Positions 8,470 through 48,908 of a DNA stretch of 64,000 bases are shown piece after piece. The stretch is from the NCBI GenBank assembly GCA_009746045.1, contig RPFO01000079.1, positions 5,369,968 through 5,433,967 of the forward strand. The letters are read 5' to 3'. The stretch is from Mesostigma viride (Eukaryota > Streptophyta > Mesostigmatophyceae > Mesostigmatales > Mesostigmataceae). How positions within the stretch are numbered: position 1 is the stretch's first letter; each line of letters starts with the position of its first letter. The translations under genes and the position numbers were made by a program. The notes beneath the pieces were generated by a model that was given only the letters and a program-made list of their open reading frames with translations, made no database searches and was not told the origin of the DNA.

Positions 8470-8526
8470 ATATACTACCAACGATTTCTGGCCTGCGCTG
8501 GTTGTCTCCTTGATATACTACCAACG
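8470..8526 (+). repeat. Micro-insertion with 14-bp target duplication
   Basis: A 29-bp insert at 8484-8512 ends in GGTTGTCTCCTTG. It is flanked by perfect 14-bp direct repeats ATATACTACCAACG at 8470-8483 and 8513-8526. It is the longest perfectly flanked member of the dispersed family described in the findings. Confidence 0.85.
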
Positions 8527-8732
8527 GGGGGTCGTAATTCATGCAGACGCTGACAACGGCACTTATTTGTTTTCGTGTTGAATATTAGTCATGAGACTGG
8601 TATAGCACTCCGTGACATGCCCTTAGGGCATGGCATGCCAGCCCTTATTTGTTCATATACTACTATAGTAGTAATTGCAGTTATGGGGACTTATTTCAGA
8701 GCATAGATACATGTAACTGTTGGCATCTTGCA

Positions 8733-9138
8733 TGCCTCCTGACGTGGGCCGGGCCCCCTGATGTTAGACGTCGCAAGGCCCGCACCTTCAAAGAACAGCT
8801 AGTAGAGGACATGGGGGGCCTAGGCCTCTCCGTGATTTGGAAGAAGATGATGGACAAGGCCAAGTGGGCCCAGGTCATAGAGGACAACGAGCCCCCCCTT
8901 GTGGGGAAGCGCCCGCGTGTGCAAACCCGAGGGAGACACGCCAGACAGCCCCCCTAGGGCATCGTGAGGCTGTCTAGATAGATGTTGTAGTTAGAATGCT
9001 GTTAGATAGATGTCGTAGGTAGCTGATGTAGATAGATTAGACCGGTAGGACTGTTTGCACCCATCCATCCATCCATCGGGGTTAATGCTCCGTTACTCCC
9101 CAACGGGAGCACGAGTCTAATTAATTAATTAATTAATC
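8733..9138 (+). mobile_element. LINE 3' fragment (RT C-terminus, 3' UTR, AATT tail)
   Basis: The plus strand encodes the last ~70 residues of a non-LTR reverse transcriptase ORF (RRRKARTFKEQLVEDMGGLG, then KMMDKAKWAQVIEDNEPP), ending at the stop at 8957. The 3' UTR follows, with CATCCATCCATC, then the stem-loop CTCC...CAACGGGAGCAC near 9085-9112, then an (AATT)n run at 9118-9136. The same 3' end recurs at 14325-14390, 32925-32995 and, inverted, 29745-29850. It is 5' truncated. Confidence 0.8.
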
Positions 9139-9429
9139 TTGCATGCACATGCCCTTTGTGCATGATCCATTGACAACTCAATCACACGGTTGGGGTTTGC
9201 TCCGTAGCTGTAGTTTCGACAATTTTGTGATCACTTGACTTAATTTTGTCCCTTCAATGGCGTTGTTGTGCTATTCGAGACAGTGGGACGATGGTCACTA
9301 TAGGTCGTGTGATCGAGTATTTTGATTGGAAACACTTGAGGGCTATCATGTTGATGGATCGATCCTGCAAAGAAAACTGCAAAGAAAACTTAAGCTGGTT
9401 GAGTATAACTTGAACCTAAATTAAAAATT

Positions 9430-10060
9430 AAATTAAACTATAGGCATGTCTCCGTGGGGAGATCATGTAGCACGTAAATATTCCCTTGCTTGTTGGATGG
9501 GGGTGAGCGAAGCCGCGAAACCTAACTAAGCTAGCTCTGAACTAATCTATAAATCCTAACTACTCTATACTCAGCAAAGCGCCCCTTCCTCCTGGGGGGG
9601 GGGGCCTTGCCCACAGGAGCTGGCGTGTGGGCCTGGACAATATAGCTCCGTACGTGGGGAGCATATGTAACACATAGCCATGAGAAAGGGGCATCTATGC
9701 CCAGGTTTTTAATACAGGCCTGGACAATGGTCTGCCACCTCTCCTCGTTTTGCATAGCAATCCAAACAAGAGAGAGGGAGGGAATGCGGTGTTCAAACTG
9801 GGCCATGGGACCACTACTAGGTCGGCCAGCAACTAATCTCTCTATAGCTCATGGCGGGTCTATACCAACCCGGCCGTCTGGGTTTGTCCTTGGGGCCAGG
9901 CCAGGTACGTCAGGATATGCCGCCCCGGCTGGCCAAGCCCGGCTGGGGACCATGGCCATGCAGCTGACCGATCGAGCTCGGTGTCTACCTGACTGGTGCG
10001 AGCAAGATGTCCTGCAAATGCTATCCTACGCTGCCTAATCTCATCCGTAATGCGAGACAT
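9430..10060 (-). mobile_element. LINE 3' fragment, second tail type
   Basis: The minus strand encodes a degraded RT C-terminal region: RRIAFAGHLARTSQVDTELD at 9860-10060, then after a break LVWIAMQNEERWQ at 9531-9806. These align with RRLLFAGHLARTDQVNTD and MIDKEKWAA of the fuller LINE at 46397-47302. The 3' UTR at 9430-9530 carries the second tail type, with GTGCTACATG followed by the CTCCCCACGGAG stem. The same tail appears at 48370-48480. Confidence 0.75.
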
Positions 10061-10277
10061 ACCAGGTTATACAAAGATCGACTATGTGTGCATGGAAAAA
10101 CCTACATTCAGGAACTGTCGGATCGAGCATCCTGTAAAACGTGCTATTCAGCTACCGGTGACCAGCTTGTCCGTGAGCGTCCATGCCTCTGCACCGCGTA
10201 GGTGAGCACCGTGAGCTAGGATCAACCAGGAGGTCCCTTGAAGAGCACTCGATTGCATGTGCATGCATGTGACAGAC

Positions 10278-11204: not shown

Positions 11205-12770
11205 ATTAACTAATTAATTAATTAATTTAAACTCGTGCACCAGTTGGGGAGTCACGGAGCACCGAAGTGCTTTTAATCCCTCAGTGCATGTGCACAACCG
11301 GAAGAAAGGGCAGAGACCCCCTTTCTCCTTCATGCCAGAGGCATGCCTCAGCGGCAGTATATCGGACACGCCAATGACGCCATAGACGATCCGGCAAGTG
11401 CTGTGGGTGCAATAAGACCCATGTGAGCATATCATCAGTAACAAGCTAGCGTGGGCAAGTAAACTGATCATACCCAGGACGTAGCCTGGCTGTACAACAA
11501 GGGCTAAGCTGAGGCAATGGCTGGTGCATATGTGTACCGTACCGTGTGTTAGCGGACCGTGCACGTGACTAGGTATGGTGGCACAACTGGGCAAACATTC
11601 TATAGGCATGGCTGCCATGGCGGGCGGCGGCAGTGACTACCAATGGATACATGCAAGCTAGGGCTGTACGTTATACAAGCTATTCTAGCCGGCAGGGGGC
11701 GTCCATATCTTGTGGTTAATATCATCAGGTCCCCGCCCCTCCAGTACACCTTGGGCTTCTGGGGGTCGATCCTGCTTGTGGCGGATCGGAGGTATCCCGG
11801 CCACAGGTCGCGTCGCTGCTGCTTTATGCTGAGCGGGGGTCAGGTCGTCGTCCAGCGTCCAGGTGAGGTACGTCGTGCAACCTCTTGCAACGAGAAAGGA
11901 ACCGCCGCTTGTCCTCAGGGGAGGGGAAGGTGAGCAGGACTGGTGGGGGAGCGGCGCCTCAAGTCCCGTGAGTGGGGAAGCTAGCGGTGGCACGGGGCAC
12001 CCTCGCAGTTCTACCTCACCTAGTACCAGGCCCATCCATGCGGGTGAGAAGCTGGTCCTTCGATGAGCTCGTCGGCAAGGGTGGTTGACGTCTCACGGCT
12101 CACCTGGCTTCTGCATGGGGGAAACAACGCAGCACCACTCGGCACTCGCGGCGAGCGCGGTCGCTGGCCTCCCGTTGTTCGGCCTGGCGGTGGTCCTCCA
12201 GCTCCTAGCTGGAGCGCTTCGTGGCAATGGCGCGTCAGTGGTTGAGGCGGTCGCTGACCGCAGCAGGTGCGCATAGGAGAGGGGCCGGCGGGAGGTCGCC
12301 AGCATCCTCAGTGCCGGGGTGGCTGGGATGCGATGGTGGCCGTCTGCTCCGCTATCTTTGGGACCTGTGTGGCCAGCCTGGGCCTCGGTGTGGGCGGTGA
12401 TGGCTTCAAGCTCCTTCATGAGCACGCCGCACTTCCCCTCGATCCACCTGGTTGAGGCAGGAGAGGAGTGCAGCATGTGCCTCGGATGCCTGCGCCGTGG
12501 TCTGCAGCGCTGTGATCGAGCTGAGGTTGTAGCTTGTGTGCGACCTAGCTTGGTTTCCGTGTTGGAGACCTAGTTGGCCTCCACCGTGCATGTTGAGCGC
12601 TGTAGTCATCAATGTCATGTTCTCGGCCAGCGGCCAGGTCACGTGCTCCTCCAGCACAGTCTGCTCGGAGGTCGTCCTTGCAGAGGGAGGCAGCCGGTGA
12701 GGCTAGCTGCCGGCTGCGCAGGCCGGGCTGGGTTGCGGAGCCTCGACGGAGCGTCGAGGTCACGTGCAGT
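11205..12770 (-). mobile_element. ORF1-only LINE-like element (degraded)
   Basis: A minus-strand copy with an (AATT)n tail at 11209-11228, the stem-loop with GTGACTCCCC, a ~400-bp 3' UTR and then ORF1. The ORF1 is broken by several frameshifts. Recognisable pieces on the minus strand are DLTWTLDDDLTPAQ-like (about 11820-11890), LLRSATASTTDA (about 12220-12270) and LEEHVTWPLAE (about 12620-12660). There is no reverse transcriptase between ORF1 and the 3' tail. It lies tail-to-tail with the copy at 10278-11180. Confidence 0.7.
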
Positions 12771-12772
12771 GA

Positions 12773-13113
12773 GCTAGTGTGGCATGCCTCTGGCATGAAG
12801 GAGAAAGGGGGTCTCTGCCCTTTCTTCAGTGTGAGCTAGTACGGCAATACGGCAATACGGCAAAACCTCGGCGTATTGCGTATTTCGTGTAATACGTGTA
12901 TTATACGCGTATAATACGGCGTACTACTAGCAAAATTTCTAGTACGGCAATACGCCAAACCTCGGCGTATTGCGTATTTCGTATAATATGGCGTATAATA
13001 CGGCGTACTAGCTCACACTGCCTTTCTTCCTGTTGTGCACATGCAGGGATTAAAAGCAATCCGGTGCTCCGTGACTCCCCAACGGGAGCACGAGTGTAAT
13101 TAATTAATTAATT
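12773..13113 (+). mobile_element. ORF1-only element 3' end, split by a MITE
   Basis: Plus-strand 3' end of the same family (GGCATGCCTCTGGCATGAAG, GGATTAAAAGCA, then the stem-loop GTGACTCCCCAACGGGAGCAC and an AATT tail at 13098-13113). The 3' UTR is interrupted by the 194-bp MITE at 12827-13020. Confidence 0.75.
12827..13020. mobile_element. hAT-like MITE, 194 bp
   Basis: Perfect 17-bp terminal inverted repeats CAGTGTGAGCTAGTACG are present at both ends. The 8-bp target duplication CCTTTCTT is at 12819-12826 and 13021-13028. The interior is AT-rich, has two copies of an AATACGGC...CTCGGCGTATTGCGTATTTCG block, and has no coding capacity. The CAGTG ends and 8-bp duplication fit the hAT superfamily. 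It interrupts a LINE-type 3' UTR, so it is younger than that insertion. Confidence 0.9.
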
Positions 13114-13139: not shown

Positions 13140-14057
13140 AAATTGTAACATATGTATCTCCGTTGGGAGTACATGTAGCACATATCAGTGACATATCCCT
13201 GAGAAGGGGCATATGACTAACATATATGATCAGAATATGCTGGTTGTCTCTTTGAGAATATGACTACATACATTCTGGGCTACTTCCTGCAAGGGTAGCC
13301 CTGACCAAGTTTACACCAGTGTAAACTTCACTACATTACCGGCCTGCTCTAGGTCCAGTACAAAGTGCACCTGCACCGCTACGTATTCCAGCACCTAATT
13401 AATTAATTGCAGCACCTAAGGTGCGGACATCGGGTGCAGAAGATCATCACATGTGGCAAAACAATGGCCAGGGCATGGCTTCTCAGCAGAGAGTAGCTCT
13501 CTGCGCATAGGCAGAGCTTGGCTAAATTCAATGCATCATAGATCTGTGGGGAGTCCCAATATATATTCGCACAGGCGCATAGGCGTGAGCCACGTGCTAT
13601 TGAGCTATTCTACACTAGTTACTGCTATATATTCCCTAGACTGGGGTTGCTGGGGTGGCAGGGGGCACCTGCCAGGGCTTGAGGTCGACGTGGATGACCG
13701 CCCCCCTCCATGCAGTATATACGGGTTTCACCCCTGCGGTCTGCCGGAGCTGGAGGTAGGTCGGCCATAGCTGCTGTCGCCGCTGTTGCTGTGCCAGGGT
13801 CAAGTCGCCATCCAGCGTGTAGGAAGTCCCCGAGAGCCTCTTGCGGCATGTAAGAAACAACATGCAGCTTATCCGCCATGTACTTAAAGGTGAGGAGCAG
13901 GAGAGCCGGGCCAGCCTTACTCCGCGCGCGGGGAAGACGTATAGCCGACATCCGCATGCAGCTCACCAGTGAGTTGCCATGCGGGGGGTAAGAATGTCGC
14001 TATGGCAAGAGACTCCAAACTTCCTTGAGCACCTGCCGGCGCTGGTCGAAGATATAC
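13140..14057 (-). mobile_element. ORF1-only LINE-like element, second type (degraded)
   Basis: Minus strand. The 3' tail with CTCCCAACGGAGATAC lies at 13150-13180. A 3' UTR follows, holding GGGCTACTTCCTGCAAGGGTA. A C-terminal ORF1 piece covers 13625-13966 (SKAGPALLLLTFKYMADKL, then LTLAQQQRRQQLWPTYLQLR) with frameshifts. The related copy is at 33010-33698 plus 44711-45622. A micro-insertion lies in its 3' UTR at 13240-13254. Confidence 0.65.
13232..13262 (+). repeat. Micro-insertion with 8-bp target duplication
   Basis: A 15-bp insert CTGGTTGTCTCTTTG at 13240-13254 is flanked by AGAATATG at 13232-13239 and 13255-13262. Sister copies of the host 3' UTR (near 24380 and 30220) lack it. Confidence 0.8.
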
Positions 14058-14100
14058 ATATGGTCCGGCTGCATGGTTGTCTCCTTGATATGGTCCGGCT
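14058..14100 (+). repeat. Micro-insertion with 13-bp target duplication
   Basis: A 17-bp insert GCATGGTTGTCTCCTTG at 14071-14087 is flanked by ATATGGTCCGGCT at 14058-14070 and 14088-14100, both perfect. Confidence 0.85.
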
Positions 14101-14395: not shown

Positions 14396-15555
14396 ATGAG
14401 CTTGGCTACGATGCATATACAATCCAGTTAATGACGCGCCCCCGAACGACATGCATGACATGCCCCCTGACGGCCTAGCATGATGCGCGCCGGCTGCATC
14501 CATGTGTATATCAATGGCATTGGTAAACAAGATTAAATAATCCCGGATATTGTCCAATCACCAGTATTATGAATACTGCCATAATATTTATATACATGAA
14601 GGAATAGTTGTCCAGGAATAGTTGTCTCACTGAATTTAGGTTTCTAGCCAGCGCTGGTTGCCTTGTTGTTACATTAACACTTTCTCGCCGCTGGCATCGA
14701 CCCACGGCATCTATAGTTGTCTCAATCAACCCCCCCTGGCATCTATCCACGCCATCTATCAAGAGACAACCAGCGCAGTCCTGAAATGTGGCAGGTCCAG
14801 CCCACGCCATCAATACACCCCTGGCACCCATGCCATGCCGTGCTCCCTGGGTAGAGCTCCAACACTTCAGATCGTGCTGATGGAGCCTCACGTCAAACCA
14901 CCCATAGCGCTGGGTCGCCGGACCCTCTCCCTCAACCAATGAGGTGCCAGCCGGGCAGTATCCACATTTGGTATCCACTCTCATGTCCCCTCCGATAAAG
15001 AACGTTGGGTCCCAGCCAGGGGGTGCCTTGCGGAGATAGAAACCACCCCAGAGCTGTGGCATCCAACCAGGAGTTACCATGCAAAGCAGCAGACACAGCC
15101 GGCCAGCAAGGCGTCATGGTGCCACCTGCTGGGCAGGAATGACACAGACTCAAAACCATTCCGTACCCCTGCTCCATGGTGGGGAGGAGAGCTCCCAAAC
15201 TTCCCTCTCCCTGCACCCTCCTTCCAGCCCAGGCCCTGTTTGCCCAAAACAATGCCCAAAACCATTGGCAAAACACTGCCCCAAACTACTCCCTGTCCAA
15301 CTCCTGCCTCCGCTAGATGAATTGATAGATGGATGAATGCATCTCCTCTTTCCCCACTCAGGCCCTGAGAGGGATTGGGGCGCCCTCCCTCAATCTCGTC
15401 GTGCATGAGGGGTCGACGGTAGCTTAAGTCTAGCACCCCGTGATGCAGTGCCGTCACCATATTAGTTTACGCTGGCCCCAGCCTTGCCCACAGCTTCTCG
15501 CTTCCAATGAAGGTTCCAATGAAGGTTCCAATGAAGGAGCGAGCTGTCCTCTCTC
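14396..15555. other. Gene-free stretch between LINE remnants and APH-1
   Basis: Contains two long micro-insertion family members in opposite orientation (14641-14668 plus and 14760-14787 minus) without clear flanking duplications. A 12-bp unit TTCCAATGAAGG is repeated three times at 15503-15538, just past the APH-1 stop. The ORFs here show no recognisable domain. Confidence 0.5.
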
Positions 15556-29463: not shown

Positions 29464-29487
29464 CAATGAGACAACCAGCGCAGGCCA
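29464..29487 (-). repeat. Micro-insertion family member without clear target duplication
   Basis: CAATGAGACAACCAGCGCAG then GCC, the reverse complement of the family core. The flanks (GTCCTAT, ATATATC) are not clear direct repeats. Confidence 0.55.
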
Positions 29488-29744
29488 TATATCTGGAGAA
29501 TCCGGACCGTGGTAGCTCGAGCCTGCCGTTATCTTATCCGCATGTTGGAGTGGTCCAGGATGATGGACAAGACAACTATTCCTGGACGCATGGCAATCCA
29601 ACGCCGTGGAAGGATTAGGGTAGTTGTCTGAGAGGAAAGACGCAAGGACCGCGGGAGCCGCATGGCTATCTGTAGGCAGACCTGCATGGAGATGATGAAT
29701 GGCCGGAGACGGAAATGTGTAGCCATGTTGGTTGAAAATATGGC

Positions 29745-30110
29745 TTTCTAATGAATTAATTAAACATGGTCCCCCTTTGGGGAGTCACGGCCGATTATTA
29801 AGTGAGACAACGACCGATTATATAATAACCCCATGTGGATGGGTGGATGGACAAACAATTCTACCGGTTCTATTCTATCTATCTAATGCCTGAACTCTAA
29901 CAAACCAAGGGAAATGCCACGTAGCAGGCCCAGCTCTAGCGATCTCGCCAAGCGTGAACTCTGATTCCGAGGGACAAGATGACCTAGACGGTGGGGTGCA
30001 GAAACAAATCTTGCAAGCGTGATCAGGGCGTGTGTTTCGAGCCTAACGTACTGGCCGGGAGTGTCTAGGGGTGAGCATGCATGTACGTACCATTGCTGCG
30101 ATATCACTAT
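29745..30110 (-). mobile_element. LINE 3' fragment (minus)
   Basis: Minus-strand 3' UTR. An AATTAATTAA tail at 29754-29763 is followed by a diverged stem (GTGACTCCCC on the minus strand), CATCCACCCATCC, and a degraded RT tail to about 30110. A micro-insertion lies at 29791-29821. Confidence 0.6.
29791..29821 (-). repeat. Micro-insertion with 8-bp target duplication
   Basis: A 15-bp insert TAAGTGAGACAACGA at 29799-29813 is flanked by CCGATTAT at 29791-29798 and 29814-29821. The flanks extend to 12 bp with one mismatch. It lies inside a LINE 3' UTR. Confidence 0.75.
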
Positions 30111-32394: not shown

Positions 32395-32998
32395 GAGGAC
32401 CTGTACCTCGGCATGCCGGCATATATCAAGGAGACAACCATATATCACCAGCACCATTCAGCAGCGGCGCCTGCAGCTGCAGCTAGTAGGGCACTTAGCT
32501 CGACGCACCAACCAGGTAGACACCTGACGTGGGCACCCCCCCGCGCGGGACTGCGCCCAGCTCAGCCTGGCCGGCACCTCCTTAATTACGTGGGCCGCCC
32601 CCCGTGATGCTAGACGCCGCAAGGCCCGCACCTTCAATTAAAGAACAGCTAGTAGAGGACTGATGGGGGGCCTATCTATAGGCCCCTCCGTGATTTGGAA
32701 ATTATTCGATGGACAAGGCCAAGTGGGCCCAGGTCATAGAGGACAACGAGCCCCCACCCCGCACCCGTGGGGAAGCGCGCCCGCGTGTGCAAACATACAT
32801 ACGGGAAGCACGCCACTAGCTAGACATGCAGGTCCCCTAGGGTAGAGTTGATGTTGATAGATTTTGTAGATAGATGTCAAGTAGATAGCTGTTGTAGATA
32901 GATTAGACCGTTAGTCCTGACTGTTTGCACCCATCCATCCATCCATCGGGGTTAATGCTCCGTGACTCCCCAACGGGAGCACGAGTCTATATCACTTA
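32395..32998 (+). mobile_element. LINE 3' fragment (RT C-terminus, degraded)
   Basis: The plus strand encodes LYLGMPAYI, then after a micro-insertion TSTIQQRRLQL and VGHLARRTNQVDT. It then has a degraded tail (RRRKARTF region near 32612) and the 3' UTR with CATCCATCCATCGGGG and the stem-loop to about 32990. It aligns with RRLLFAGHLARTDQVNTD of the LINE at 46397. Confidence 0.75.
32420..32446 (-). repeat. Micro-insertion interrupting a LINE reading frame
   Basis: An 11-bp insert AAGGAGACAAC at 32428-32438 is flanked by CATATATC at 32420-32427 and 32439-32446. Without the 19 bp of insert plus one duplication, the LINE coding frame is continuous across the site. This shows an insertion event rather than chance. 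Confidence 0.85.
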
Positions 32999-33009
32999 AT
33001 GGGGGGCCA

Positions 33010-36870: not shown

Positions 36871-37256
36871 AAGAATTAGATATCTGTGTGACTGACCTTT
36901 CAGCTCTGGATGTCTCTCATATTACCTGCTATCATTGTAAGGAAGTAGGTCACCTTAAACGTGAATGCCCCAAGTTCCTTTCGGGTGCTCCCCCTCATCC
37001 CGACGCTCGCCCTCCTCGTACCCCTCAGCGTGCTCCTATTCGTCCCACTTCAGGACGCATTCCTTCAGCTACCCCTAGTAGGCTGAATGCTGTGCAGACA
37101 GGATCCCCAGGGTTCCCCTATGATAATCAGGCTCCCGCACCCTCTTCAATCCCTCGTGACCCTCCAGCAGTGGCTTTTCCGCCAGGGTCTTCTTCGGGGT
37201 TCGTTCCTATGGATTTGGGGGGGAGGGGGAACAGTAGGCCTGTCAGCCGGGGGTAA
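36871..37256 (+). CDS. Nucleocapsid region with CCHC zinc knuckle, shifted frame
   Basis: Open in the -1 frame relative to gag through EELDI and then TDLSALDVSHI. It holds a classic CX2CX4HX4C knuckle (CYHCKEVGHLKREC) followed by a Pro/Arg-rich tail. There is no ATG at its head, so it is probably expressed as a Gag extension. It ends at TAA 37256 and overlaps the pol frame by about 170 nt. Confidence 0.75.
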
Positions 37257-39774
37257 CCTGGACAGGTCCTTAGATAGTACCCCAGATATTAATTTTTGCT
37301 TGCCTGTTTTTATAACCTCTGTAGGAGCTGAATCATCCCTACCACTACGTGTGCGTCCTCTTATGTTCTTGAATGGTGGTTTAACCGTCCCTCACACTGT
37401 TGTAGACCCCTTCTTGCATGCTGATGAACTCTTGAATGTCTCTGTGTTGGTAGATAGCGGTGCGGCTAGCTCCTTTGTGAGCGAGGCCCTAGTTAGACGT
37501 TTAGGACTAGTCCCTACCCCTCACACCAAACCCGTTACTGTTCATTATGCTGATGGTCGCACCAGTCATTCCCCGGGTACGGTGTCCCTTCCCATGGTTA
37601 TACAAGGACGTACTGTCAACCTGACGGCCACTATAGGCCCTATCACTACCGCTGATGTATTACTAGGATTAGATTGGCACCAGGATAATAAGATTACTAT
37701 TAATTATGATACCATGGTCATTTGGTTTCCAGATAGCTCTTACTGGGTACCTGAACGTCATTATAGATTGGAAAATTTATCCTTGGTAGATATTACTCCT
37801 CCTACACCTGTTGATCCTCCTGTAAGACCTATACCTGAAGTAATAATGTCAAATGACGAATTACGTTCTGAATTAAAGCAAAATGGATACCTATTATGTA
37901 TGTTCCTTCAGTTAGAAGTACAACAGATACCTAGCACTAACAATAGTGTGGATATAGATGTAAATACAGTGGATACAATAGGAGTAGGATTTACTGAAAA
38001 TGAAATAGTAAGATACATGGCTGTGATAGATTCCTCAAAAGTATTTGAAGAAAAGACTCCTTCTTATCCTCCTCCTCGTTCTGTTTTACACCGTGTAGTT
38101 ATCAAGGACGGTGCAGTTCCTACGCACTCTCCGATGTATAGAATGGGCCCTACCGAGTTAAAGGAACTAAAACAGATTTTAGTGTCATTATTAGAAGCAG
38201 GATTGATAGAGCCTAGTAACTCCCCCTACTCAGCTGGTGTCCTGTTAGTTCCTAAGCCAAATGGCAAGTTTCGCCTAGTTACTGATTATAGGAAGTTGAA
38301 TGATATTACTGTGAAATCTAAATACCCTCTACCTCGTATTGACGATATATTTAATAAGGTTAAAGGTTCCACTTGTTTCACAGTACTGGATTGTGCGGAT
38401 GGTTTTTGGCAGTTGCGGATAGCTCCTGAGGATTGCCATAAAACCGCCTTTGCTACCCCTTTTGGTCATTACCAGTTTAGAGTAGCGGCTATGGGACTCT
38501 GTAACTCGCCTGCCTCTTTTCAAATGTTAATGAATGAAGTGCTTAGACCTGTTATGGGAAATTCTCATCTTCCTCAGGTGTCCTCTGATCTAAAGGATCC
38601 CTCCTTCTCCTCTGTTTCTTTATCTGAGCATGACCGTTCTTGTGCTCAAGCTTACTTAGATGATATTCTTATTTACTCTCCTGATTTTGAAACGCACCTA
38701 CGTGATTTAAAGAAAGTATTAGAAATAATGGCTGAAAATTCTTTGTGGGCGCGCCGTGCTAAAGTGCGTTCGGGTAGGAGTGTCCCATTTTTAGGGCACG
38801 TTCTGTCAGATGCCGGGGTCGCTACCGACCCGGATAAAACTAAGTCAATTCAGGAATGGCCTACTCCTACCGACGTTAAAGGTGTACGTAGTTTCCTAGG
38901 AATTGCTTCTTACTATAGGCGTTTTATCCCGCGTTTCGCCACTATAGCAGCCCCTATTAATCATTTATTAAAGAAGGATATCCCCTTTGTTTGGAGTAGT
39001 GAGTGTCAGTCTGCTTTTCAGTGCCTAAAATCCCTACTCCTTTCCCCTCCTGTACTCATCCTACCGGATACTACTAAACCCTTTGTTGTGGCTACAGATG
39101 CTAGTAAAGTAGCTATAGGTGGTGTCCTTCTCCAGGATCAGGGTCAGGGCTTACAGCCAATTGAATATATCTCTAGGACAATGCTCCCTGCGGAGCGTAA
39201 CTATCCCGTCCACCAGCAGGAACTCTTAGCGGTGGTGTATTGTTGCCACGCGTGGCAGCACTTCCTTAAAGGTGCTCAATTTGATGTCTGCCTGAATGAA
39301 CCCTGTGAGCTAGATCCTTATAGGTTAGTTATCCAAACGGATCATCGTCCCCTTACCCATCTTCTCTCCCAACCCAACCTTACCCCTCGGCAAGCGCGCT
39401 GGATGGAATTTTTAGCACAGTTTTCCCCTTTTAAACTTCAGTATGTCAAGGGTGTAGATAACATAGTACCAGATGCACTCTCTCGTCGTGCAGACTATTC
39501 CTTCTTCGAGGACCTTGATGTTCTCAATATTACTCTAGTTCCTACTACTATGGGTGTAACCCCTTATGGTGAACTACCTGATGATGATTCCTATGCCTAC
39601 CTCTTTCATACAGCTGTTCGCATGCCTGATCTCCTTTCTCACGTAGGACTCTCTCTCCCGTGTGAGGCCCTTCCTGTGGCCTCGGTGGGGGGGGAGGGGA
39701 AAAATAAAATTTCTATACCGCTTAGCCATATAGCGACTAGGTCAGGAAAGTCTTATGAAAACGTAGTCCCCTAG
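37087..39774 (+). CDS. Pol: aspartic protease, reverse transcriptase, RNase H
   Basis: 895-codon open frame. The functional start is probably a frameshift from the nucleocapsid frame rather than the first ATG. Domains in order: protease with LVDSGAASSFVSEALVRRLG, then DVLLGLDW. The reverse transcriptase follows, with RLVTDYRKLNDITVKSKYPL, FGHYQFRVAAMGLCNSPASF and the catalytic YLDDILIYS. RNase H follows, with VATDASKVAIGGVLLQ, YPVHQQELLAVV and LVIQTDHRPLTHLL. After RNase H the frame ends in TAG at 39772-39774, right after CCCC. The integrase continues in the -1 frame. Confidence 0.93.
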   Translation: MLCRQDPQGSPMIIRLPHPLQSLVTLQQWLFRQGLLRGSFLWIWGGGGTVGLSAGGNLDRSLDSTPDINFCLPVFITSVGAESSLPLRVRPLMFLNGGLTVPHTVVDPFLHADELLNVSVLVDSGAASSFVSEALVRRLGLVPTPHTKPVTVHYADGRTSHSPGTVSLPMVIQGRTVNLTATIGPITTADVLLGLDWHQDNKITINYDTMVIWFPDSSYWVPERHYRLENLSLVDITPPTPVDPPVRPIPEVIMSNDELRSELKQNGYLLCMFLQLEVQQIPSTNNSVDIDVNTVDTIGVGFTENEIVRYMAVIDSSKVFEEKTPSYPPPRSVLHRVVIKDGAVPTHSPMYRMGPTELKELKQILVSLLEAGLIEPSNSPYSAGVLLVPKPNGKFRLVTDYRKLNDITVKSKYPLPRIDDIFNKVKGSTCFTVLDCADGFWQLRIAPEDCHKTAFATPFGHYQFRVAAMGLCNSPASFQMLMNEVLRPVMGNSHLPQVSSDLKDPSFSSVSLSEHDRSCAQAYLDDILIYSPDFETHLRDLKKVLEIMAENSLWARRAKVRSGRSVPFLGHVLSDAGVATDPDKTKSIQEWPTPTDVKGVRSFLGIASYYRRFIPRFATIAAPINHLLKKDIPFVWSSECQSAFQCLKSLLLSPPVLILPDTTKPFVVATDASKVAIGGVLLQDQGQGLQPIEYISRTMLPAERNYPVHQQELLAVVYCCHAWQHFLKGAQFDVCLNEPCELDPYRLVIQTDHRPLTHLLSQPNLTPRQARWMEFLAQFSPFKLQYVKGVDNIVPDALSRRADYSFFEDLDVLNITLVPTTMGVTPYGELPDDDSYAYLFHTAVRMPDLLSHVGLSLPCEALPVASVGGEGKNKISIPLSHIATRSGKSYENVVP

Positions 39775-41369
39775 GACCTCCCCTTCTCTTCGGCAAGGCG
39801 GTAGGAGATCTCTTTAAACCTGTTCTGGATACTTCTGTAGCGATGCCTACCTCTGATCTTGAACGCCTTATTAGTAGATTTACGGCCACTGAGCCGGAAG
39901 CATTAGCTGCCATTGCTGCACATCCCCAACAATTAGGCAAGCACCCTTGTAAATTTGTAGGTGGGTTTTTATATGTGCAGATAGCAGATTCTCCCCCTCA
40001 ATGGCGCCTGTATGTCCCTCCTATCTGTCGCTCCTCCTTGCTCTTTGAGTTGCATGACTTAGCTGCTCACCAGGGTGGTAAACGGGTACGGGACCTAGTA
40101 GCCCGCTCTTATTACTGGCCTTCCCTTTATAAGGATGTGGATGAGTATGTTAGAACTTGTCAATCTTGCCAGGAAATGAAACCCAATAATGTAGGACAGA
40201 TAGCAGAACCTAGGACCTTGCCTGACCCTATCATGCCTTGGGATTCTATCATGATGGATTTTGTAGGACCTTTTAGAAAGAATGATAGGGGCAATGCCCA
40301 AATCCTTGTGTTCATAGATCGTTTTACTCGTATGTGCCATCTTGTGCCGTGTCCTTTAGAACTCACCGCACGTGATTGCGCACGCCTATACCTCAATAAT
40401 GTATATAGATATCATGGATTGAGTAGGCAGTTTATTAGTGATAAGGATAAATTATTTACCTCAGATTTTTGGCAGCAGTTTTTCGCTGCCATCGGTACCA
40501 AGGTTACCTACGGTACTGCCTACCACTCCTCCTCCTCTCATTTAGTAGAGCGTCTTAATAGAGTAGTAGAAGAAGCGCTTAGGCACTATGTTAATGGCTC
40601 GGGTAGTGATTGGGAGGATTATTTATGTTTGGTAGAGTTCTCCCTCAACAATTGTCCCCAAGCTGCGCATGGATATACGCCCTTCTTCTTAGATACTGGG
40701 AGACAGCCCCTTACCCCTACCTCTCTCTTAGCTAGTCCTCTACGGGACAAGGATGATGTGTCCCGAGATACTGTAGAAGGTGTACAGTCCTTACTAGATA
40801 GAATGAAAACTGCTCATGACCACGCGATCTCAGGGTATCAAAAAGCTCAGGCTAAGTACCTTGCTAGGTTGCGTGCCTCCTTAGATAGACGAGCACCTGA
40901 GATAGAAGTAGGAGATCTAGTATTAGTAGAAGGCCCCCGTGTTGGCCGTTTTGCTCATAAGTTTGAAGCAGAACTGAAGGTCAAACTTAGGCCTGCCTTC
41001 TTAGGACCCTTCCATGTGTTGTCTAGGGTAGGAAATTTCTTGTATAAGGTCGATATCCCTACCTCTTGGCAAACGCATTCAAACACCTTCCATAGGAGCC
41101 AGCTTAAACTGTACCACCCTAGTACGTTCGCTGGCAGGGAGTTAGCGCCTGCCCCTTTAGAGCATAATCCTGACACTGGGGAAGTAGAAGACGAAGTAGA
41201 AAGCATCGTGGCCCATCGAGATATCAAAAAGGGCCGCGGTACCCAGCGTCAGTATAAAGTGAAGTGGATGTATGCTCGTAGTGAAGTAGATAAGGTTTGG
41301 TATACGGAGAGTGAGCTAGATGGGTGTAGTCGCCTGCTGCAGGAATATAAAACCCTGCACAAGCTCTAG
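39775..41369 (+). CDS. Integrase with chromodomain
   Basis: Open from about 39760 in the -1 frame relative to RT, with the first ATG at 39843. It has the HHCC zinc-binding domain (HDLAAH ... CQSC), then the catalytic core with DDE residues (MMDFVGPF, FISDKDKLFTSDFW, HLVERLNRVVEEALR). The GPF-type C-terminal domain (FLGPFHVLSRVGNFLYKVDI) follows, and finally a chromodomain (ESIVAHRDIKKGRGTQRQYK, VKWMYARSEVDKVWYTESEL). The chromodomain places the element among chromoviruses, which often target heterochromatin. It ends at TAG 41369. Confidence 0.92.
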
Positions 41370-41445
41370 TCGTAGGCCTTCTCCTCTCTTATGTTATGTC
41401 TGCTGTCGACGGGTGGTTGGTTGTCCCCTCCCCTCCGCAGCCGTC

Positions 41446-43758
41446 ATGACAGAGCCTACCCCTCCGGCTGAGAGCCCGCTGCCGTCCCTGCCCCTACCGG
41501 ACCCTGAGCTGTATTTCGAGGCCCTTCCGGGCCGTTGGGTGTCGCGATCATGTTACCGGGGTGGCGTTGTGCAGCCGGCCCTTCAGGCCCAACATGCGAG
41601 CTTAGTCAGGGCGGCCCTCTTCGGGGTCACGTGGTATGGTCCTTCCCCTGATGAGCCGCACCAGCTTGTCCTGCACGGTTTCGATGATGCCGGACACTGT
41701 TTGTTGGGGTGTGGTTCCAGCTGTCCCGCCTTGGGGCAGATAGATGCGGTTCTCCGGTGTTGCCGTGTGTTCTCCTACCTCTCCACTCCTGTGGGCCGTA
41801 CCTGCCTACGGGAGGTGTTCCCGTGGCTTCCAGCTGAGGGTGATGCTGAGGTAGACGAGAACCCCTGCGACCTTTTACGGGCCGTAGAGTTCATGGAGAT
41901 AGCTGATCAGTCGGCGGGACTAGCGGTTAGTGGTCCTACCCCTTCGGGCGCCCCAGCCGAGGTACATTATACTCCAGATTATTCTGCCTCGAGCGCTGCG
42001 TCCGCCTCCTCGGTGTCTGTCCCTCCCTCTCCGGTCCCGTCGTCCCCTCGGTCGACCCGGGATGTCGCAGTGGAGCCTACCCCTTCGGGTTTGCCTGATC
42101 CTCTTTCGGCGACGGTCTCGGCTATGCAGGCTCAGATCCAGTCTTTGACCACGGCGTTTGGGGCCTTCCTTGCGGCCCAGGCGCAGGTCCCGGCCACGCC
42201 GGCTGGATCCGCGCCCCCTACCCCTTCTGTCGCCCCGGCGACTACGGCTTCGCCCGCGCCCCCGCCTGCGCCCGCGGTCGCTGTGGTTCCGGCGGCTCCT
42301 GCGACTCCTGCTGCCTCTGCGCCTGTTACCGCTCTACCTGCGCCTACGCGGGAGTCTCCTGCCCCTGTTAGCTCGCCCTCCGTCGCTGCTTCCGAGCCTC
42401 CTCCCGCTCAGGCGCAGACGTCGCGGGGTTTCTTTGGCGATACTAGCGGGCTTCCCAGACTTTGGGAGGGTGGTCCTCCGCAGAGGATTCCGGTTCCTGA
42501 CTGGGGCCTGGATGGTAGTCAATCTTATGCAGGACTGCCTGTCCCTACGGGCCCCATTTTCAACATGTGGCCTGAGGGTGCACCGGCAACGGAGACCGGC
42601 GCGCCTGCGTCGTTGGTGGGTCCGTCACGGCCCTCTCTGGCTTCAGGTCCGGCGCGACCTCCTGTTTTACCAGTGCCCCCTGCGTCGGTGTCGGCTCCTG
42701 CCCCTGCGTCAGCCCCTGCTCCGGTCCCTCCTCCTTCGGCCTCGCGGTCTTTGGCCGCGGTTGTTCGGTCCACCGGTCAGGATCCTCGCGCCACCCGCGC
42801 TGCCGATTCCCTCAGGGAGTTGTCCCAGGGTGATCGGGACAGGGCTCCTTCTGTGGTGCACGCGACGCCGGAGTCGCGTGACACGCCCATTCCGGGGTAT
42901 GGTATGTCCGCACTCGCCTGCCGACAGTGTGACCTGCCGCGCGCCTCTGCTGAGCTTGCCATCTCTCCCATGTCCTATGGGTTCTCCCAGGTGTGTCGGG
43001 CGCCCCGGGATCGTGGCCTACCCATTGAGACTGATCGGCCTCCGTTCGACATGGTTATTTTAGCTGATCCGGTGTTCGAGGGTGAGATCCTGGTCCGGCG
43101 CGTCCTGTATCGCTGGGCGAGGCGCCACAACGACTTGGACACCTACGGTGGGTTTCAGTGGGCTTACCCTCCCCCTCTGGGCATTATGGCTTCGGATGCC
43201 CTTACAGTAGAGTTTCCTGCGGTGCCGGGTGCGGCGTACACTACGGTCCTCCAGCCCATCCTTGAGTGGGATGCCCGCCGCCCGGCGCCTATCCCGGGCC
43301 AGGGTCTAGACTCCCGCGGTCACCCTCCTCCTCGTGCCAGCGACTACCTAGAGACATTCGGGTCGCGACAGTGTGTTCGTCGGTGGCGCTCCCGCGAGGT
43401 TCGGCACATCCGGTTGTGGCCGTCCAACGTGGAGCCCCTGGTGGACCTGTTCTTCCCGACGGGTCTGCGCCCTCGGATTCGGTATCATTGCCTCCTCCTG
43501 CGGGCCCTTTGCCTGATCGCGGTAGAGCCTTTCCTTCGCCTCTTTGCCTGTGGCTTTCTGGACTGGGCCCGTGGCCAGGTCGTCCTCACGCAGCATAGGT
43601 ATTACTGGGCCTTCCTGGGCCTCTTTCCTGACGGCGTGTGGGCCGATGTTTTCCTCACTGTAGATAGGCATGACAATGTTGAGGATGTGGCTCACTACCA
43701 GGCCTACCTGGAGGTCCTGCTGGCCTCTCGTGGCACTTACCAGACGGATGGCCACTAG
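41446..43758 (+). CDS. Extra 3' ORF of the gypsy element, function unknown
   Basis: 770 residues from ATG 41446 (the frame is open from 41320, overlapping integrase). The N-terminal ~190 residues look globular and Cys-rich (GHCLLGCGSSCPALG, RCCRVFSYLS). Then comes a ~350-residue Pro/Ala/Ser-rich linker, then a globular C-terminal domain of ~230 residues (PFDMVILADPVFEGEILVRR, LFFPTGLRPRIRYHCLLLRA, HRYYWAFLGLFPDGVWADVF). I recognise no family. It occupies the position of an env or accessory gene but has no obvious signal peptide or transmembrane anchor. It is clearly GC-richer than gag-pol, suggesting a separate origin. It is intact, which argues that it is under selection. Confidence 0.8.
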   Translation: MTEPTPPAESPLPSLPLPDPELYFEALPGRWVSRSCYRGGVVQPALQAQHASLVRAALFGVTWYGPSPDEPHQLVLHGFDDAGHCLLGCGSSCPALGQIDAVLRCCRVFSYLSTPVGRTCLREVFPWLPAEGDAEVDENPCDLLRAVEFMEIADQSAGLAVSGPTPSGAPAEVHYTPDYSASSAASASSVSVPPSPVPSSPRSTRDVAVEPTPSGLPDPLSATVSAMQAQIQSLTTAFGAFLAAQAQVPATPAGSAPPTPSVAPATTASPAPPPAPAVAVVPAAPATPAASAPVTALPAPTRESPAPVSSPSVAASEPPPAQAQTSRGFFGDTSGLPRLWEGGPPQRIPVPDWGLDGSQSYAGLPVPTGPIFNMWPEGAPATETGAPASLVGPSRPSLASGPARPPVLPVPPASVSAPAPASAPAPVPPPSASRSLAAVVRSTGQDPRATRAADSLRELSQGDRDRAPSVVHATPESRDTPIPGYGMSALACRQCDLPRASAELAISPMSYGFSQVCRAPRDRGLPIETDRPPFDMVILADPVFEGEILVRRVLYRWARRHNDLDTYGGFQWAYPPPLGIMASDALTVEFPAVPGAAYTTVLQPILEWDARRPAPIPGQGLDSRGHPPPRASDYLETFGSRQCVRRWRSREVRHIRLWPSNVEPLVDLFFPTGLRPRIRYHCLLLRALCLIAVEPFLRLFACGFLDWARGQVVLTQHRYYWAFLGLFPDGVWADVFLTVDRHDNVEDVAHYQAYLEVLLASRGTYQTDGH

Positions 43759-44134
43759 ATAGAGGGCCTTAGGCCCGACCTGAGGGTGTTGTCCCTCCGG
43801 TATGTAGAGTCGCCCTCATATTCTGGCCAGTTGGTTGGCTGTTCTTGGTCCTTAGCGCTGATGTGTTTACTCTGTGTGTCCTGCCCAGTGCCGTCCCCCC
43901 CGGCCAGGACTCCGTTCCAGGCAGTTAGGGGAACCTACCACCAGGCTTGGTGCTGGCTAACCCTACACCACCCGGCGTGGTGGTGGAGACCGTGTGAACT
44001 ATTGGTGCTTTGTATCTGGGATGGTCTATCGATTGTGTTGGTGTGTGCTGGGTGCGTTAGGATTATTTTCCTACCCCTCTGGTTCCCTCCTCTCTGCGTA
44101 GGGAGAGGGCTCCCTACCTTTTGTGGGGGGGAGG

Positions 44135-44705
44135 TGTTACGTCGCGTAACAATTCGTTGTAGTTACGGACGTAAATTAGGTCCTTGGCCTCGGTTGTTCC
44201 TAGGTTACGTGCAGTTCTAGTTTGGACATGATTGTCCCCGTAACAGTACTGTGGTATAGTGGGTGCCTTTGGGCGCCGCGCCGCGTACTATATTAGTGGT
44301 CCTTATCCTTTTGTAGAATGTAGTGGACAGGCGTGCATCTGTGCACCTGCTTGTGTTTCTGTGTTTCTGCAGGCGAGGGCCAGGTCGGCCCGAGCCTGTT
44401 GGACCGTTGGTGACCATTTATGCACGTTCCACTCCTTGTGTGGTCACTCGGCGTGTGTTAAATGAATTAGCACATATTAGCTTGGGTCACGGCAGTTTAG
44501 TTGTGTTTCCTTCCTCTTTTCCTGGAGTAAACGGGTTTGATTAAATGGCCTATGGCGTATTACAGTAGTACATATGTAAATGCATTGAGATCTGGTTCGT
44601 CTCGGTCGTCTTTCGCTAGGGGTGTAAATAGAAGCAGCCTCACTAGTTTAGGTAGTATCAGGACAGGTAGAGGTAGAGGTGGCGGCCGAGGCTTGCGGCG
44701 TAACA
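44135..44705 (+). repeat. 3' LTR (571 bp)
   Basis: Starts TGTTACGTCGCGTAACA and ends GCGGCGTAACA, preceded by the polypurine tract GTGGGGGGGAGG. It lacks the 221-bp insert of the 5' LTR. Confidence 0.95.
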
Positions 44706-45900: not shown

Positions 45901-46246
45901 TCGTGGCTGGCGGCTCCGGTAAAGATCGAGGTCATATGGGGGCAGCGCATATATTAAAAATTATAATAACTTACAAGAGAGTCATGAAAGCACCCAATCA
46001 AACATGAACAAAGCCAACACTAACAAGAGATATGCCACGACAAAATAACGTTATGTACACAGCCGGCATGGGAGACTCGATCGATCCACACTGCGGAATG
46101 AAGTAAAACAGCCTAATTACCGTGCTGCGCTGCAAAGCTAGACAGCCCGCGTGCGGCGGAGCAAGATATCAGCACCATAGCCGGGGTATAAGTGTTACCG
46201 ATTCAAGGCGTTGGTGCCAGTATGACGTCCAGGTGTACACGCGCTA

Positions 46247-48100
46247 AGTAAGTAAGTAAGTACTTGCGTGTCATGCGCAAAGGCATGCCACGGAGTACTA
46301 TGCTAATCTCATTACGGCTATGCTAATCTCATTAGAAAAATAATTACACAAAAGTTTAGACAAATATCGTCTGCATCATCCCCCAACCGTTAAGCACTAG
46401 ATGGGGATGTAATCCTCATCCGAGCTGTCCTCTACTGTAATGGCAGACGAGGCGGTAGTGTAGCGGCTATCCTCAGGACCAATAACCTCCACCTGCGGAC
46501 TTCTACCCTGGCTAGCAACGGGCCGCGGGGCCCGTGGGGAGAAAACAGGAGCATACCCCTCGGGGAGGTGCTTATCGCAGATGGCAGCCCATTTCTCCTT
46601 GTCAATCATGCGGGCGCGGAGTACGGATAGTCCCAGAAGCCCTGCATCTTCAAGCAGTTGTGTCACATAGGTCCGGGTCGCGCCGCGCCGGTGCCCGGCG
46701 CGCGCAAGTTTGCCAGTGGGTTGCGATGGGACAAGGGGACCCTGCCATATGAGGAGGTGTCTACCTGGTTGGCCCGTCTTAAGCCCCCCGGCAGGGCCCA
46801 CATCGGTATTCACCTGGTCTGTGCGGGCAAGATGGCCGGCAAAGAGGAGGCGGCGGTGTCGGATGGTATGGGTGACAAGAGGGAGCTCGCAGTAGAGCTC
46901 GGCCCGGGTGCGGCGTTCTTGGTAGCGGACGCCGAGGATATGACGGAGCATTCGAGTGACGGTGCCGTCAAGCTGCTGGCTCAGCGCCTGGTCCAGGGTC
47001 CACGCCTCGCAGCCATAAAGGAGGATGCTGAGGACAAGGGCCTTGAACAGAATGCGCTTGCGTCGCTCACTCAGGTAGCGACAGGTCCAGAACCTGTCGA
47101 GGCGGCGGAGGGCCGCCCAGGCCTGGCCAATGCGGGTGTTGATGTCGTCGGCCGTGGAGGGAAGCCAGCTGCCAAGGAGCTTGAAGCGAGTCGCCGGGGG
47201 GACGGGGCTGCCGTCTAGCAAGAGGAGGGTGGGTGGGAGCCCTATCCCAGCAGGGAAGCCGATGGCCATGACCTCCGTTTTCTTGCTGATCATAAGCCCC
47301 ACCGCCCGCGCTTCCAGTGATTTATAAGCTGTCTAGCCACAGTTGGGCTGACTCTGGGTTTTCCACGAGTGTCGTGTCATCAGCGTAGATCAGATCGCTC
47401 AGGCGGTAGGGTGGGTCAACCCCGCCGTAGCTGGCGTACTCCGTGACCTCGATCCCCGGCGGGCGCCCCTCCACCCGGGCGAAGCGGGCTTGTGCACGCC
47501 GCATAATATAGTCCACCATAATGATGAATAGATATGGGGAGAGCACACAGCCCTGCCACACCCCGGTGTGCAGGGGAAACGCCGGAGTGACGCCGTCGGC
47601 GGTACGGACCTGGGCTTGGGACCCTTCATAGAACTGGCGGATGATCTCAACGATGTACGATGGGACACGGAACAGGTGAAGGACCACCCACAGGGCGTCC
47701 CATATAACCGTATCGAATGCCTTGGTGTAATCCACGAAGATCAATAGCAATGGCAAGAGGCCGGGGGCCAGGCGGCCCACTTCCTCGATCAGGCGGCGCG
47801 CGGTAATAGTGACCATAACACAATTGCGACCAACACGGAAGCCCATCTGGGACTCACCTAGGTGGGGATCGAGGCTGGCGCGCATGCGGTTCAGCAGGAG
47901 ACGCATGAAGACTTTCAGCACGCAGCTTTGGAGGCATACGCCGCGGTAGTTGCCGGTATCCGCGGCGGACCCCTTGCCCTTGTACAGCATGACCCGGACA
48001 GCGGTCTTCCAATACGTCGGCGCGCTGACCAAGGGGCCCGCTGGCCCTCCAGGTCCAGGCGGTCCTAGAGCTCCCGGAGCCGGTGCCCATCACTCCTTAA
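46247..48100 (-). mobile_element. LINE, 5'-truncated, reverse transcriptase region
   Basis: Minus strand. The 3' end carries a (TAAG)n-type tail at 46247-46265 and a GGCATGCC stem near 46285. The body encodes a non-LTR reverse transcriptase and C-terminal region. The 5' part of RT and any endonuclease are missing beyond about 48100. Confidence 0.85.
46397..48032 (-). pseudogene. Non-LTR reverse transcriptase with frameshift
   Basis: 48032-47322 covers RT blocks: WKTAVRVMLYKGKGSAADTG, NYRGVCLQSCVLKVFMRLLL, QMGFRVGRNC, FVDYTKAFDTV, VWQGCVLSPYLF and the catalytic LIYADDTTLV. 47302-46397 continues in another frame with SKKTEVMAIGF, FKLLGSWLP, SILLYGCEAWTLDQ and HRRLLFAGHLART, then a tail with KEKWAAICD. 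The break near 47310-47322 looks like a one-base insertion that creates a stop, so this copy is dead. The tail matches the fragments at 8733, 9531-10060 and 32395. Confidence 0.85.
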
Positions 48101-48364
48101 TTAAAGTAGCTGGCAGTCAGGGTCCCCATGGTCCCGAACTCCTCCAAGACAAAGGGCACCACACGGTACCAGCGCATATATTCACCTCGAATTATAAGTG
48201 GTAAGGAGTTTTCTGAGTTCGTGCACAACTCATCAGTGCTTCTAGGCTGCGTCCACTCCCGGTTTGCCGGTATTCAGTCCATGTGCGCGAGGATCGAATT
48301 TGTAGCAACAAGTTAGGTTGCTCATCACCCTGCATTGTCAATTAGACAAATTAATATTACATTA

Positions 48365-48600
48365 TTTTCGATTATACCATGACTCCGAATCGGGAGAATT
48401 CGTAGCACGTGTTCCCTTGCTTGACGGGGGTGAGCTAAGCCACGAAAGCTATTTACTAAGGTAACTAAACTAATCTATACAATTAAATCCTATCTACTCT
48501 ACGCATAGTTCTATCTACGATCTACTCACAATTATCAGCTACTACGATCTACTCACAATTATCAGCTATATATACTACTGTATATGTAGTTGTTTAGAGC
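48365..48600 (-). mobile_element. LINE 3' tail fragment, second type
   Basis: Minus-strand 3' UTR with stem CTCCCGATTCGGAG, TAGCACGTG and CAAGCAAGGGAA. It aligns with 9430-9530, including TTAGTAAATAGC-like and AGATAGGATTTAATTG-like stretches. It is truncated. Confidence 0.6.
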
Positions 48601-48864
48601 ACGCCACCTGTGTGGGGCTCGATCTTCGCATGCACTTTTCTAATTTGCGATATATAATTAACTAACGGCATACGAGTTCAGTAATCACGTAGAAGGTACG
48701 TTAATTGCGGAAGATACTATACATGAAATTTCAAGTGCTAGAAAACTACTTGAGTATCATGACTTCTGCATCGAGTACACATACTGCCGTAGCGATTTTG
48801 TTTTTTTTTTATCGTATGTATATAGGAGTACAGATTCAAGATCCGTCGCGTAAATTTCATTGGT

Positions 48865-48908
48865 ATACTTATCAAGGAGACAACCAGAGCAGGCCAGAAA
48901 ATACTTAT
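48865..48908 (-). repeat. Micro-insertion with 8-bp target duplication
   Basis: A 28-bp insert at 48873-48900 (starting CAAGGAGACAACCAGAGCAG) is flanked by ATACTTAT at 48865-48872 and 48901-48908. On the minus strand it reads as the near full-length family member ending GGTTGTCTCCTTG. Confidence 0.85.

Follow-up and report, generated by a model that had tools for sequence, protein, structure and literature searches.

Short inserts with a constant 3' end in the genome of Mesostigma viride, very probably extremely 5'-truncated copies of one retroelement family

The 64-kb window of Mesostigma viride DNA (the whole stretch that was analyzed) contains six short inserts with a common 3' end, hereafter stubs, each enclosed by a direct repeat. 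All six had been reported in the initial annotation, and all are present together with their repeats. On the plus strand, a 29-bp stub representing the 3' end of the element described below occupies 8484..8512, with the duplication ATATACTACCAACG at 8470-8483 and 8513-8526, and a 17-bp stub occupies 14071..14087, with the duplication ATATGGTCCGGCT at 14058-14070 and 14088-14100. On the minus strand, a 15-bp stub with a diverged tail is located at 29799..29813 (duplication ATAATCGG, in sense orientation, at 29791-29798 and 29814-29821) and a 28-bp stub at 48873..48900 (duplication ATAAGTAT, sense, at 48865-48872 and 48901-48908). The stub at 29799 sits inside the 3' end of an L1-like LINE, three paralogues of which align on both sides without it. 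The minus-strand insert at 32427..32438, previously read as 11 bp beginning at 32428 with an 8-bp duplication, is real, but it measures 12 bp with the duplication ATATATG (sense; 32420-32426 and 32439-32445) if the register is fixed at ..CTTG; the duplication grows by one or two bases if the register is shifted.

The remaining insert was given as 15 bp at 13240 with an 8-bp duplication, a reading that has to be replaced. Four related repeats (24312, 30150, 54341 and 9633) lack approximately 45 bp at this site and are paralogous empty sites, whose flanks show that the duplication is ATATGACTA (9 bp, at 13211-13219 and 13258-13266) around a plus-strand insert of 38 bp (13220..13257); the 8-bp AGAATATG was therefore rejected as the target duplication and is a chance or secondary repeat. 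The first 20 bp of this insert (13220-13239) are filler, and the last 18 bp (13240-13257) belong to the element. With the register fixed after ..CTTG, ATA starts five of the six window duplications, and all six once the site at 13240 is corrected, compared with the four originally claimed and with a background ATA frequency of 0.0123.

Regarding the seven less clear members of the initial list, four can be assigned. The positions 29464 and 52652 belong to 3' ends of long copies, 52733 belongs to a partial copy, and 14760 is a probable stub (14759..14787, minus strand) with a 10-bp flanking repeat in a locally repetitive stretch; the tandem-repeat surroundings of this repeat were judged by eye. 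At 14641, 21628 and 23145 no nearby exact repeat of at least 6 bp was found. A long, old parent copy lies on the plus strand at 52300..52680, with its 3' end at 52680 and its upstream edge not delimited (the query taken from it was 52395-52684, and likeness further upstream was judged by eye). A second long, old copy, on the minus strand at 29464..30110, is interrupted by a piece of the L1-like LINE, which itself carries the stub at 29799. The partial copy (52733..52770, minus strand) has its 3' end at 52733 and more diverged homology upstream, is possibly interrupted, and showed no target duplication when one was looked for.

The association between the core at the 3' end and the flanking repeats is far above chance. 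Ten core matches with at most two mismatches were observed in the window (1.49 expected), a number reached by none of 100 shuffled windows. Five of the nine matches with at most one mismatch had, directly after the core, an exact repeat of 7 bp or longer; because the rate at 20,000 random anchors was 0.016, this corresponds to P ~1e-7. As an unbiased control, 1078 heptamers with 12-30 occurrences each were ranked by how often they fell inside the 148 short-insert/direct-repeat structures of the window: the top two were both core sequence (11/21 and 8/19), and a third core heptamer (5/13) shared third place with an unrelated one (5/13). A chance origin of core and repeats was rejected on the basis of the shuffles, the random anchors and the heptamer control. 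The single match in viral_contigs showed no other similarity to the window.

In the genome (440 Mb) the 13-base core has 8517 exact matches, compared with 10 for the reversed pattern, and ATA follows it directly in 6119 of them (72%). A sample was taken from the start of one contig, comprising 99 of the 100 core places listed (3615199 was left out; for 3478043 just 406 bp of upstream sequence were available); in at least two pairs (344900/2096663 and 1922760/1962716) the flanks are alike over long distances, and the paired sites are not independent. Exact duplications of at least 7 bp were found at 35/99 matches, whereas 20 permutations averaged 2.2 and never exceeded 5; for at least 9 bp the figures were 19/99 and 0.35, and for a mismatch-tolerant test 37/99 against a mean of 2.4 (maximum 7 in 50 permutations). 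Duplication lengths ranged from 7 to 30, the latter being the upper limit of the test. ATA stood next to the core in 75/99 and AT in 88/99 cases, and neither a poly(A) nor a simple-repeat tail was present at the sampled ends. The expectation of the initial annotation that core and duplications go together genome-wide thus holds at 16 times the permuted level (35/99 vs 2.2), but not to the letter: an exact duplication reaching 7 bp is missing at 64/99 matches, equally for long copies and stubs, a lack that age or duplication-free joining may explain.

The sampled copies form a graded series in which element homology extends from 13 bp to at least 1.2 kb, with 45/99 at or below 45 bp. The duplication rate is alike at both ends of the series, i.e., 16/45 for stubs of up to 45 bp and 15/44 for copies longer than 100 bp. 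Among the 35 sites with duplications, 19 have inserts of up to 60 bp, and four of these 19 have an insert-free paralogue elsewhere in the genome; within the window, two further inserts have insert-free paralogues. These empty sites are paralogues within one genome rather than alleles of a second strain, and this count considered the best two matches per site, those with a gap equal to insert plus duplication being excluded as filled sites. Among the paralogous matches listed (best two per sampled site) there were no empty sites that keep the core while the flanks vary. Filler bases also occur at the sampled sites 1137992 and 2552745.

Copies ending at the same 3' end reach about 1.9 kb and more and encode a reverse transcriptase (RT). 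Ten long copies from ten contigs all align to the common 3' end, nine of them beginning at nine different 5' positions and the tenth exceeding the compared stretch. One copy, itself cut off at the duplication ATATAGGC, contains an open RT frame of 445 aa, which stops soon after the RT, about 580 nt short of the element 3' end. Aligned over 418 columns, this frame shares 32% identity with a homologue that carries LYWTPKLHK, IGIPMGTNCAPLLADLFLYSYE and RYIDDV. The RT motifs noted are LKLHK, IGIPMGTNCA and YIDD, which we take to be of the Penelope-like (PLE) type, and the parent element is probably Penelope-like, as judged from these motifs. Close pairs of element copies occur at C1 3374329 and in L071.

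Pfam gave no match for a 278-aa stretch of the frame or for a 98% identical Mesostigma protein, NCBIfam gave only a weak match of the 445-aa frame to group II intron RT (7.5e-5), and a profile of 22 homologues had no match among solved structures (E up to 1). No endonuclease, including GIY-YIG, was detected by Pfam in two RT stretches, which do not reach the element 5' end, and no hammerhead was matched in three genome stretches with long copies or in the window copies, from which the 5' part is missing. According to a figure legend in PMC6947507, the repeat classes found in the M. viride genome include Penelope-like elements.

The inserts are very probably extremely 5'-truncated copies of one retroelement family made by target-primed reverse transcription. 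The retroposition proposed in the initial annotation is supported by the fixed 3' end, the graded 5' ends, the variable duplications, the ATA target and the empty paralogues. Its suggestion that the inserts, shorter than any SINE, belong to no described class is not upheld, because the 3' end and the duplication rate are common to stubs and long RT-encoding copies; inserts of 11-45 bases mark the shortest extreme of a copy family that is very large. In the proposed sequence of events, an element protein would cut one strand and expose a 3' end ..TAT-OH (sense target N|ATA), and copying of the element RNA would begin at one fixed site, yielding the constant end GGTTGTCTCCTTG, and would often halt after 12-40 nt. 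A cut in the second strand, in most cases at a distance of 7-14 and rarely of 20-30 bases, and joining of the new end, to which a few filler bases are sometimes added, would then produce the target duplication. The order of the cuts, the early stop and the making of the stubs by the element's own enzyme are inferred. RNA folding of the element 3' end was no better than that of shuffles, which leaves the early stop without a demonstrated structural cause; a stalling 3' hairpin (pairing of GATAAC with GTTGTC and of GCAGGC with GCCTGC) therefore remains a guess, and a hairpin in the 5' part of a window copy likewise did no better than shuffles.

The length distribution bears on an alternative in which the same enzyme makes two products and the stubs are templated by a separate short RNA, such as a 3' fragment of about 30 nt left by processing. 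Homology lengths cluster at 28-39 bp (13/99, against 4 at 21-27 and 3 at 40-49) and form a large class at 13-16 (23/99), and two of the stubs in the window stop at 28 and 29 bp. However, the lengths continue to about 1.2 kb with an unchanged duplication rate, the 3' region of the window copies has no Rfam match, and three long-copy stretches gave two Rfam matches far below gathering scores, so that this origin appears unlikely. The exact 13-mer search hides stubs below 13 bp, so the distribution covers lengths from 13 bp upward. Repair patches, in which fill-in of breaks with overhangs is combined with end-joining capture of a piece of element cDNA, would likewise yield duplications and would accommodate the filler bases seen at 13240, 1137992 and 2552745; random capture would not yield one fixed 3' end followed by ATA in 72% of 8517 copies, and we regard such an origin as very improbable.

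Regarding the identity of the parent, the window is rich in L1-like LINEs, and fixed 3' ends are also described, in passages of PMC3747384, for LINEs of the stringent type. Descent from an L1-like LINE, or from a LINE-tailed SINE of the tRNA type, is nevertheless improbable: the L1-like copies here have differing tails ending in simple repeats, the parent frame shows no similarity beyond chance to the L1-like RT of the window, and the window yields neither a tRNA nor an Rfam match. Neither the L1-type RT nor the A-rich or repeat tail of an L1-like LINE was seen. A LINE-tail SINE was rejected on account of the differing tails, and a tRNA-head SINE, suggested when the sequence near 52403 looked weakly like an A/B box to the eye, for want of tRNA or Rfam support and in view of the RT encoded by long copies. 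Footprints or ends of a DNA transposon (hAT, as suggested by the 8-bp duplications first read at four of the six sites) or of a Helitron have a negligible probability, given that duplication lengths spread from 7 to 30 and that an RT is encoded by long copies. Because the 5' ends vary between copies, a fixed inverted end is lacking, and a hAT or other cut-and-paste transposon was rejected since neither the duplication length nor the ends on both sides are fixed. Helitrons are not known to make target duplications.

Among known systems, PLEs likewise leave 5'-truncated copies, and excerpts of PMC11167929 describe the Anolis PLE PAc as starting copying at fixed sites inside its own RNA and cutting AT-rich DNA, most often 5'-ATT-3'; the element here has a fixed 3' end and a target beginning with ATA. 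In PAc the endonuclease follows the RT (same excerpts), whereas the present frame ends soon after the RT, and the GIY-YIG endonuclease, hammerhead ribozyme and pseudo-LTR of PLEs were not seen in copies whose 5' end is not reached. The 5'-truncated LINEs share the fixed 3' end, variable 5' end and variable target duplications, but their truncated members are given as 100 to 1,000 bp in passages of PMC3747384, against 45/99 of up to 45 bp here, and the sampled ends have no poly(A) or simple-repeat tail. Tailless retropseudogenes, as portrayed in parts of PMC5322556, also lack a tail, carry flanking duplications and end at preferred positions of the template RNA, but lose the 3' side of the RNA, the reverse of the present copies, which keep a constant 3' end and miss the 5' side. 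Human class 1 templated sequence insertions (excerpts of PMC5110952) are inserts with duplications ascribed to a retroelement enzyme, but have poly(A) and many sources instead of one family and one end. Neither such stubs nor this element in Mesostigma were described among the literature matches listed (titles and starts of abstracts, few subscription journals), and the passages seen of PMC7027972, PMC6947507, PMC7650587, PMC2912911 and PMC3846280 contain no description of either.

The kind of element is itself known; what is unusual is the share of stubs, nearly half of the copies sampled. We tentatively raise the idea, which is somewhat less likely than its opposite, that the element, probably Penelope-like, begins copying at one fixed site and breaks off within a few dozen bases so frequently that it mainly produces stubs. 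If so, some 8,500 exact-core insertions would exist, by the sample nearly half of them below the size of repeat annotation, early stopping would be built in, either as low processivity or as a barrier in the RNA, 12-16 and 28-39 nt from the start, and in other genomes, too, small insertions may commonly come from such stubs without being recognized. At 12-40 bp, stubs would escape repeat annotation and pass for ordinary small insertions, and a single window would suggest a new element class where the genome shows a graded series. The insertion of Penelope-like elements is little known. The stubs would show how often copying can halt almost at its start, and thousands of them with exact ends log the start and stop of copying, the target cut and the joining of ends base by base; first-strand initiation and early termination are thus open to study from sequence alone.

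The six short inserts of the window, named here by their starts (8484, 13240 and 14071 on the plus strand; 29799, 32428 and 48873 on the minus strand), are present with their direct repeats as the initial annotation described them. Matches to the core, i.e. the 13-base constant 3' end of the element (ending ..CTTG), number 10 in the window at up to two mismatches against 1.49 expected, and five of the nine with at most one mismatch carry an exact repeat of at least 7 bp at the 3' side of the core in fixed register (background rate 0.016). When 1078 heptamers were ranked, blind to the core, by lying inside short-insert/direct-repeat structures, the top two were core heptamers, and a third core heptamer shared third place with an unrelated one.

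Mesostigma viride is a unicellular streptophyte alga. The GC content of the window is 54% and its genes are eukaryotic; the host frame at 49155-50258 (minus) shows 86% identity to an M. viride protein (next matches approximately 40%), and the retroelement frames show up to 98% identity with Mesostigma proteins. In the genome searched (439.9 Mb, 2243 contigs) the exact core occurs 8517 times (4214 + 4303) and the reversed pattern 10 times, by an exact 13-base search that is blind to stubs, i.e. inserts with only a short 3' piece of the element, of less than 13 bp. This copy number is unusual. The core is followed by ATA in 6119 cases (72%), and ATA makes up 1.2% of window positions. Of 100 matches listed, all on contig C1, 99 were read closely; the bases directly 3' of the core were ATA in 75, other AT in 13 and something else in 11.

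The pairing of core and flanking repeats held up beyond the window. An exact duplication of at least 7 bp was found at 35 of the 99 matches and not at the other 64, part of which may be due to age; reshuffling the 3' flanks among sites (20 rounds) gave 2.2 on average and never more than 5. At least two pairs of the 99 share long flanks and are non-independent. A test tolerating mismatches in longer repeats gave 37 of 99 (mean 2.4, maximum 7, 50 permutations). With the element length of each match judged by similarity to long copies, exact duplications of this size at the predicted 5' edge were carried by 10 of 28 copies holding 13-20 bp of element, 6 of 17 with 21-45 bp, 4 of 10 with 46-100 bp, 7 of 24 with 101-300 bp, 5 of 12 with 301-700 bp and 3 of 8 with more than 700 bp. 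Because duplications occur across all length classes, stubs and long copies most likely arose by one process. Two length clusters stand out among the 99 copies, one at 13-16 bp and one at 28-39 bp. Truncated LINEs are given as 100-1,000 bp in a review (PMC3747384), whereas here 45 of the 99 copies hold at most 45 bp, an unusual share of stubs. Unusually long duplications surround a 20-bp stub at C1:2802426 (stretch L053; at least 30 bp) and a 35-bp stub at C1:983156 (stretch L011; at least 20 bp).

Paralogues without the insert were found for several sites. Site 13240 lies within a repeat family, none of whose four further members in the window has the extra approximately 45 bp; read from these four, the duplicated target is ATATGACTA, which gives an insert of 38 bp, made up of 20 bp filler and 18 bp element. 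Site 29799 falls within an L1-like LINE 3' end; of six other copies of this end that were aligned, three span both sides and lack the insert, the gap exceeding insert plus duplication by a few bases, and three diverge upstream and are little informative. Of the 35 duplication-bearing sites in the genome sample, the 19 with inserts of at most 60 bp were checked against approximately 340 kb (window plus fetched loci). Empty paralogues across the join were found for four, C1 15879, 599024, 3554550 and 3599525 (best identities 79%, 91%, 87% and 81%), and no insert-free match in that sequence for the other 15. Some long sites, e.g., 2329735 and 1746047, also have empty paralogues.

The long parent sought by the initial annotation exists as copies that encode a reverse transcriptase (RT) and end in the same core. 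Window sequences 52300-52680 (plus) and 29464-30110 (minus) resemble each other over approximately 280 bp and share the core at their end; with the former as query (290 bp, 52395-52684), 1272 candidate places were found in the genome, and the 40 scored, window copy included, are all at least 89% identical over the query. Ten long copies from ten contigs, a set biased to long copies because it was chosen from the best matches to this query, share a common 3' end in alignment; the 5' starts of nine all differ, and the tenth extends beyond the stretch fetched. In the longest sampled copies the RT frame stops approximately 580 nt before the core. The copy in stretch L071 (approximately 1.9 kb, frame open over 445 residues) is bounded on both sides by ATATAGGC. 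A further copy, in L081 with L082, continues upstream with a frame resembling the start of a homologue (21/61 identical, E 3e-9), and the element is therefore longer than 1.9 kb. The initial annotation knew of no described class like the inserts, but they do not form a new one: they are the shortest members in a gradation of copies left by an element that encodes an RT. Two copies lie tail to tail in the window at 52650-52765 (3' ends 52680 plus and 52733 minus, 52 bp apart), and a closer pair at C1:3239983/3240000. AGGAATAGTTGTC, a tandem pair near 14600 (14600-14632) and single near 29570 (29570-29583), adjoins core-like sequence and is perhaps a related family with another tail.

The parent frame is 32% identical to a homologue over 418 columns. 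This homologue carries the motifs LYWTPKLHK, IGIPMGTNCAPLLADLFLYSYE and RYIDDV, which we take to be associated with Penelope-like elements (PLEs). Neither a 278-aa part of the frame nor a 98% identical Mesostigma protein has a Pfam match, and some homologues match RVT_1 weakly (best 9e-6, under the cut-off); NCBIfam gave the 445-aa frame a weak match to group II intron RT (7.5e-5). The frame shows no likeness to the L1-type RT of the window. Pfam scans of the RT stretches revealed no GIY-YIG domain, and scans of the long-copy stretches no hammerhead, the element's 5' part lying outside both. PLEs are listed among M. viride repeat classes in a figure legend of a paper on its genome (section 2.3, PMC6947507).

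Graded 5' ends, a common 3' end and duplications bear out the target-primed retroposition originally suggested. For one PLE studied in vitro, cleavage falls in AT-rich DNA, most commonly at ATT, and copying is initiated at fixed internal RNA sites without a match to the target (PMC11167929); similarly, the stubs here fit one start site and a target beginning ATA. Copying would begin from one start site at a target beginning ATA and would leave a stub on stopping early; pauses in copying would fit the two length clusters. Filler points to end joining at some 5' junctions. A predicted 3' hairpin of the element had no support against shuffles.

The window also holds an LTR element at 33698-44705, Gypsy-like by eye, with long internal frames including RT- and integrase-like sequence by eye and identical ends (33698-34206 + 34417-34495 and 44134-44637 + 44627-44705). 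Another LINE, at 46254-48089 (minus), carries an RT frame and the tail CTCCGTGGCATGCC..(TACT)n; stub 599024 on C1 sits in a similar tail. At 13389-13419, the 11-bp TTAATTAATTG has a copy of CAGCACCTAA on each side and resembles an equally tiny stub, here of the (TTAA)n-tailed LINE. Five L1-like LINE 3' ends (9029-9135, 11212-11309, 13021-13113, 30373-30464 and 32895-33004) show a hairpin GTGCTCC..GGGAGCAC, then GAG, then in most (TTAA)n. Hairpin and GAG resemble the stem plus CGAG of stringent plant L1s, as described in a review (PMC3747384); if true, this likeness would bear on the question whether strict 3' recognition is ancestral in green plants.
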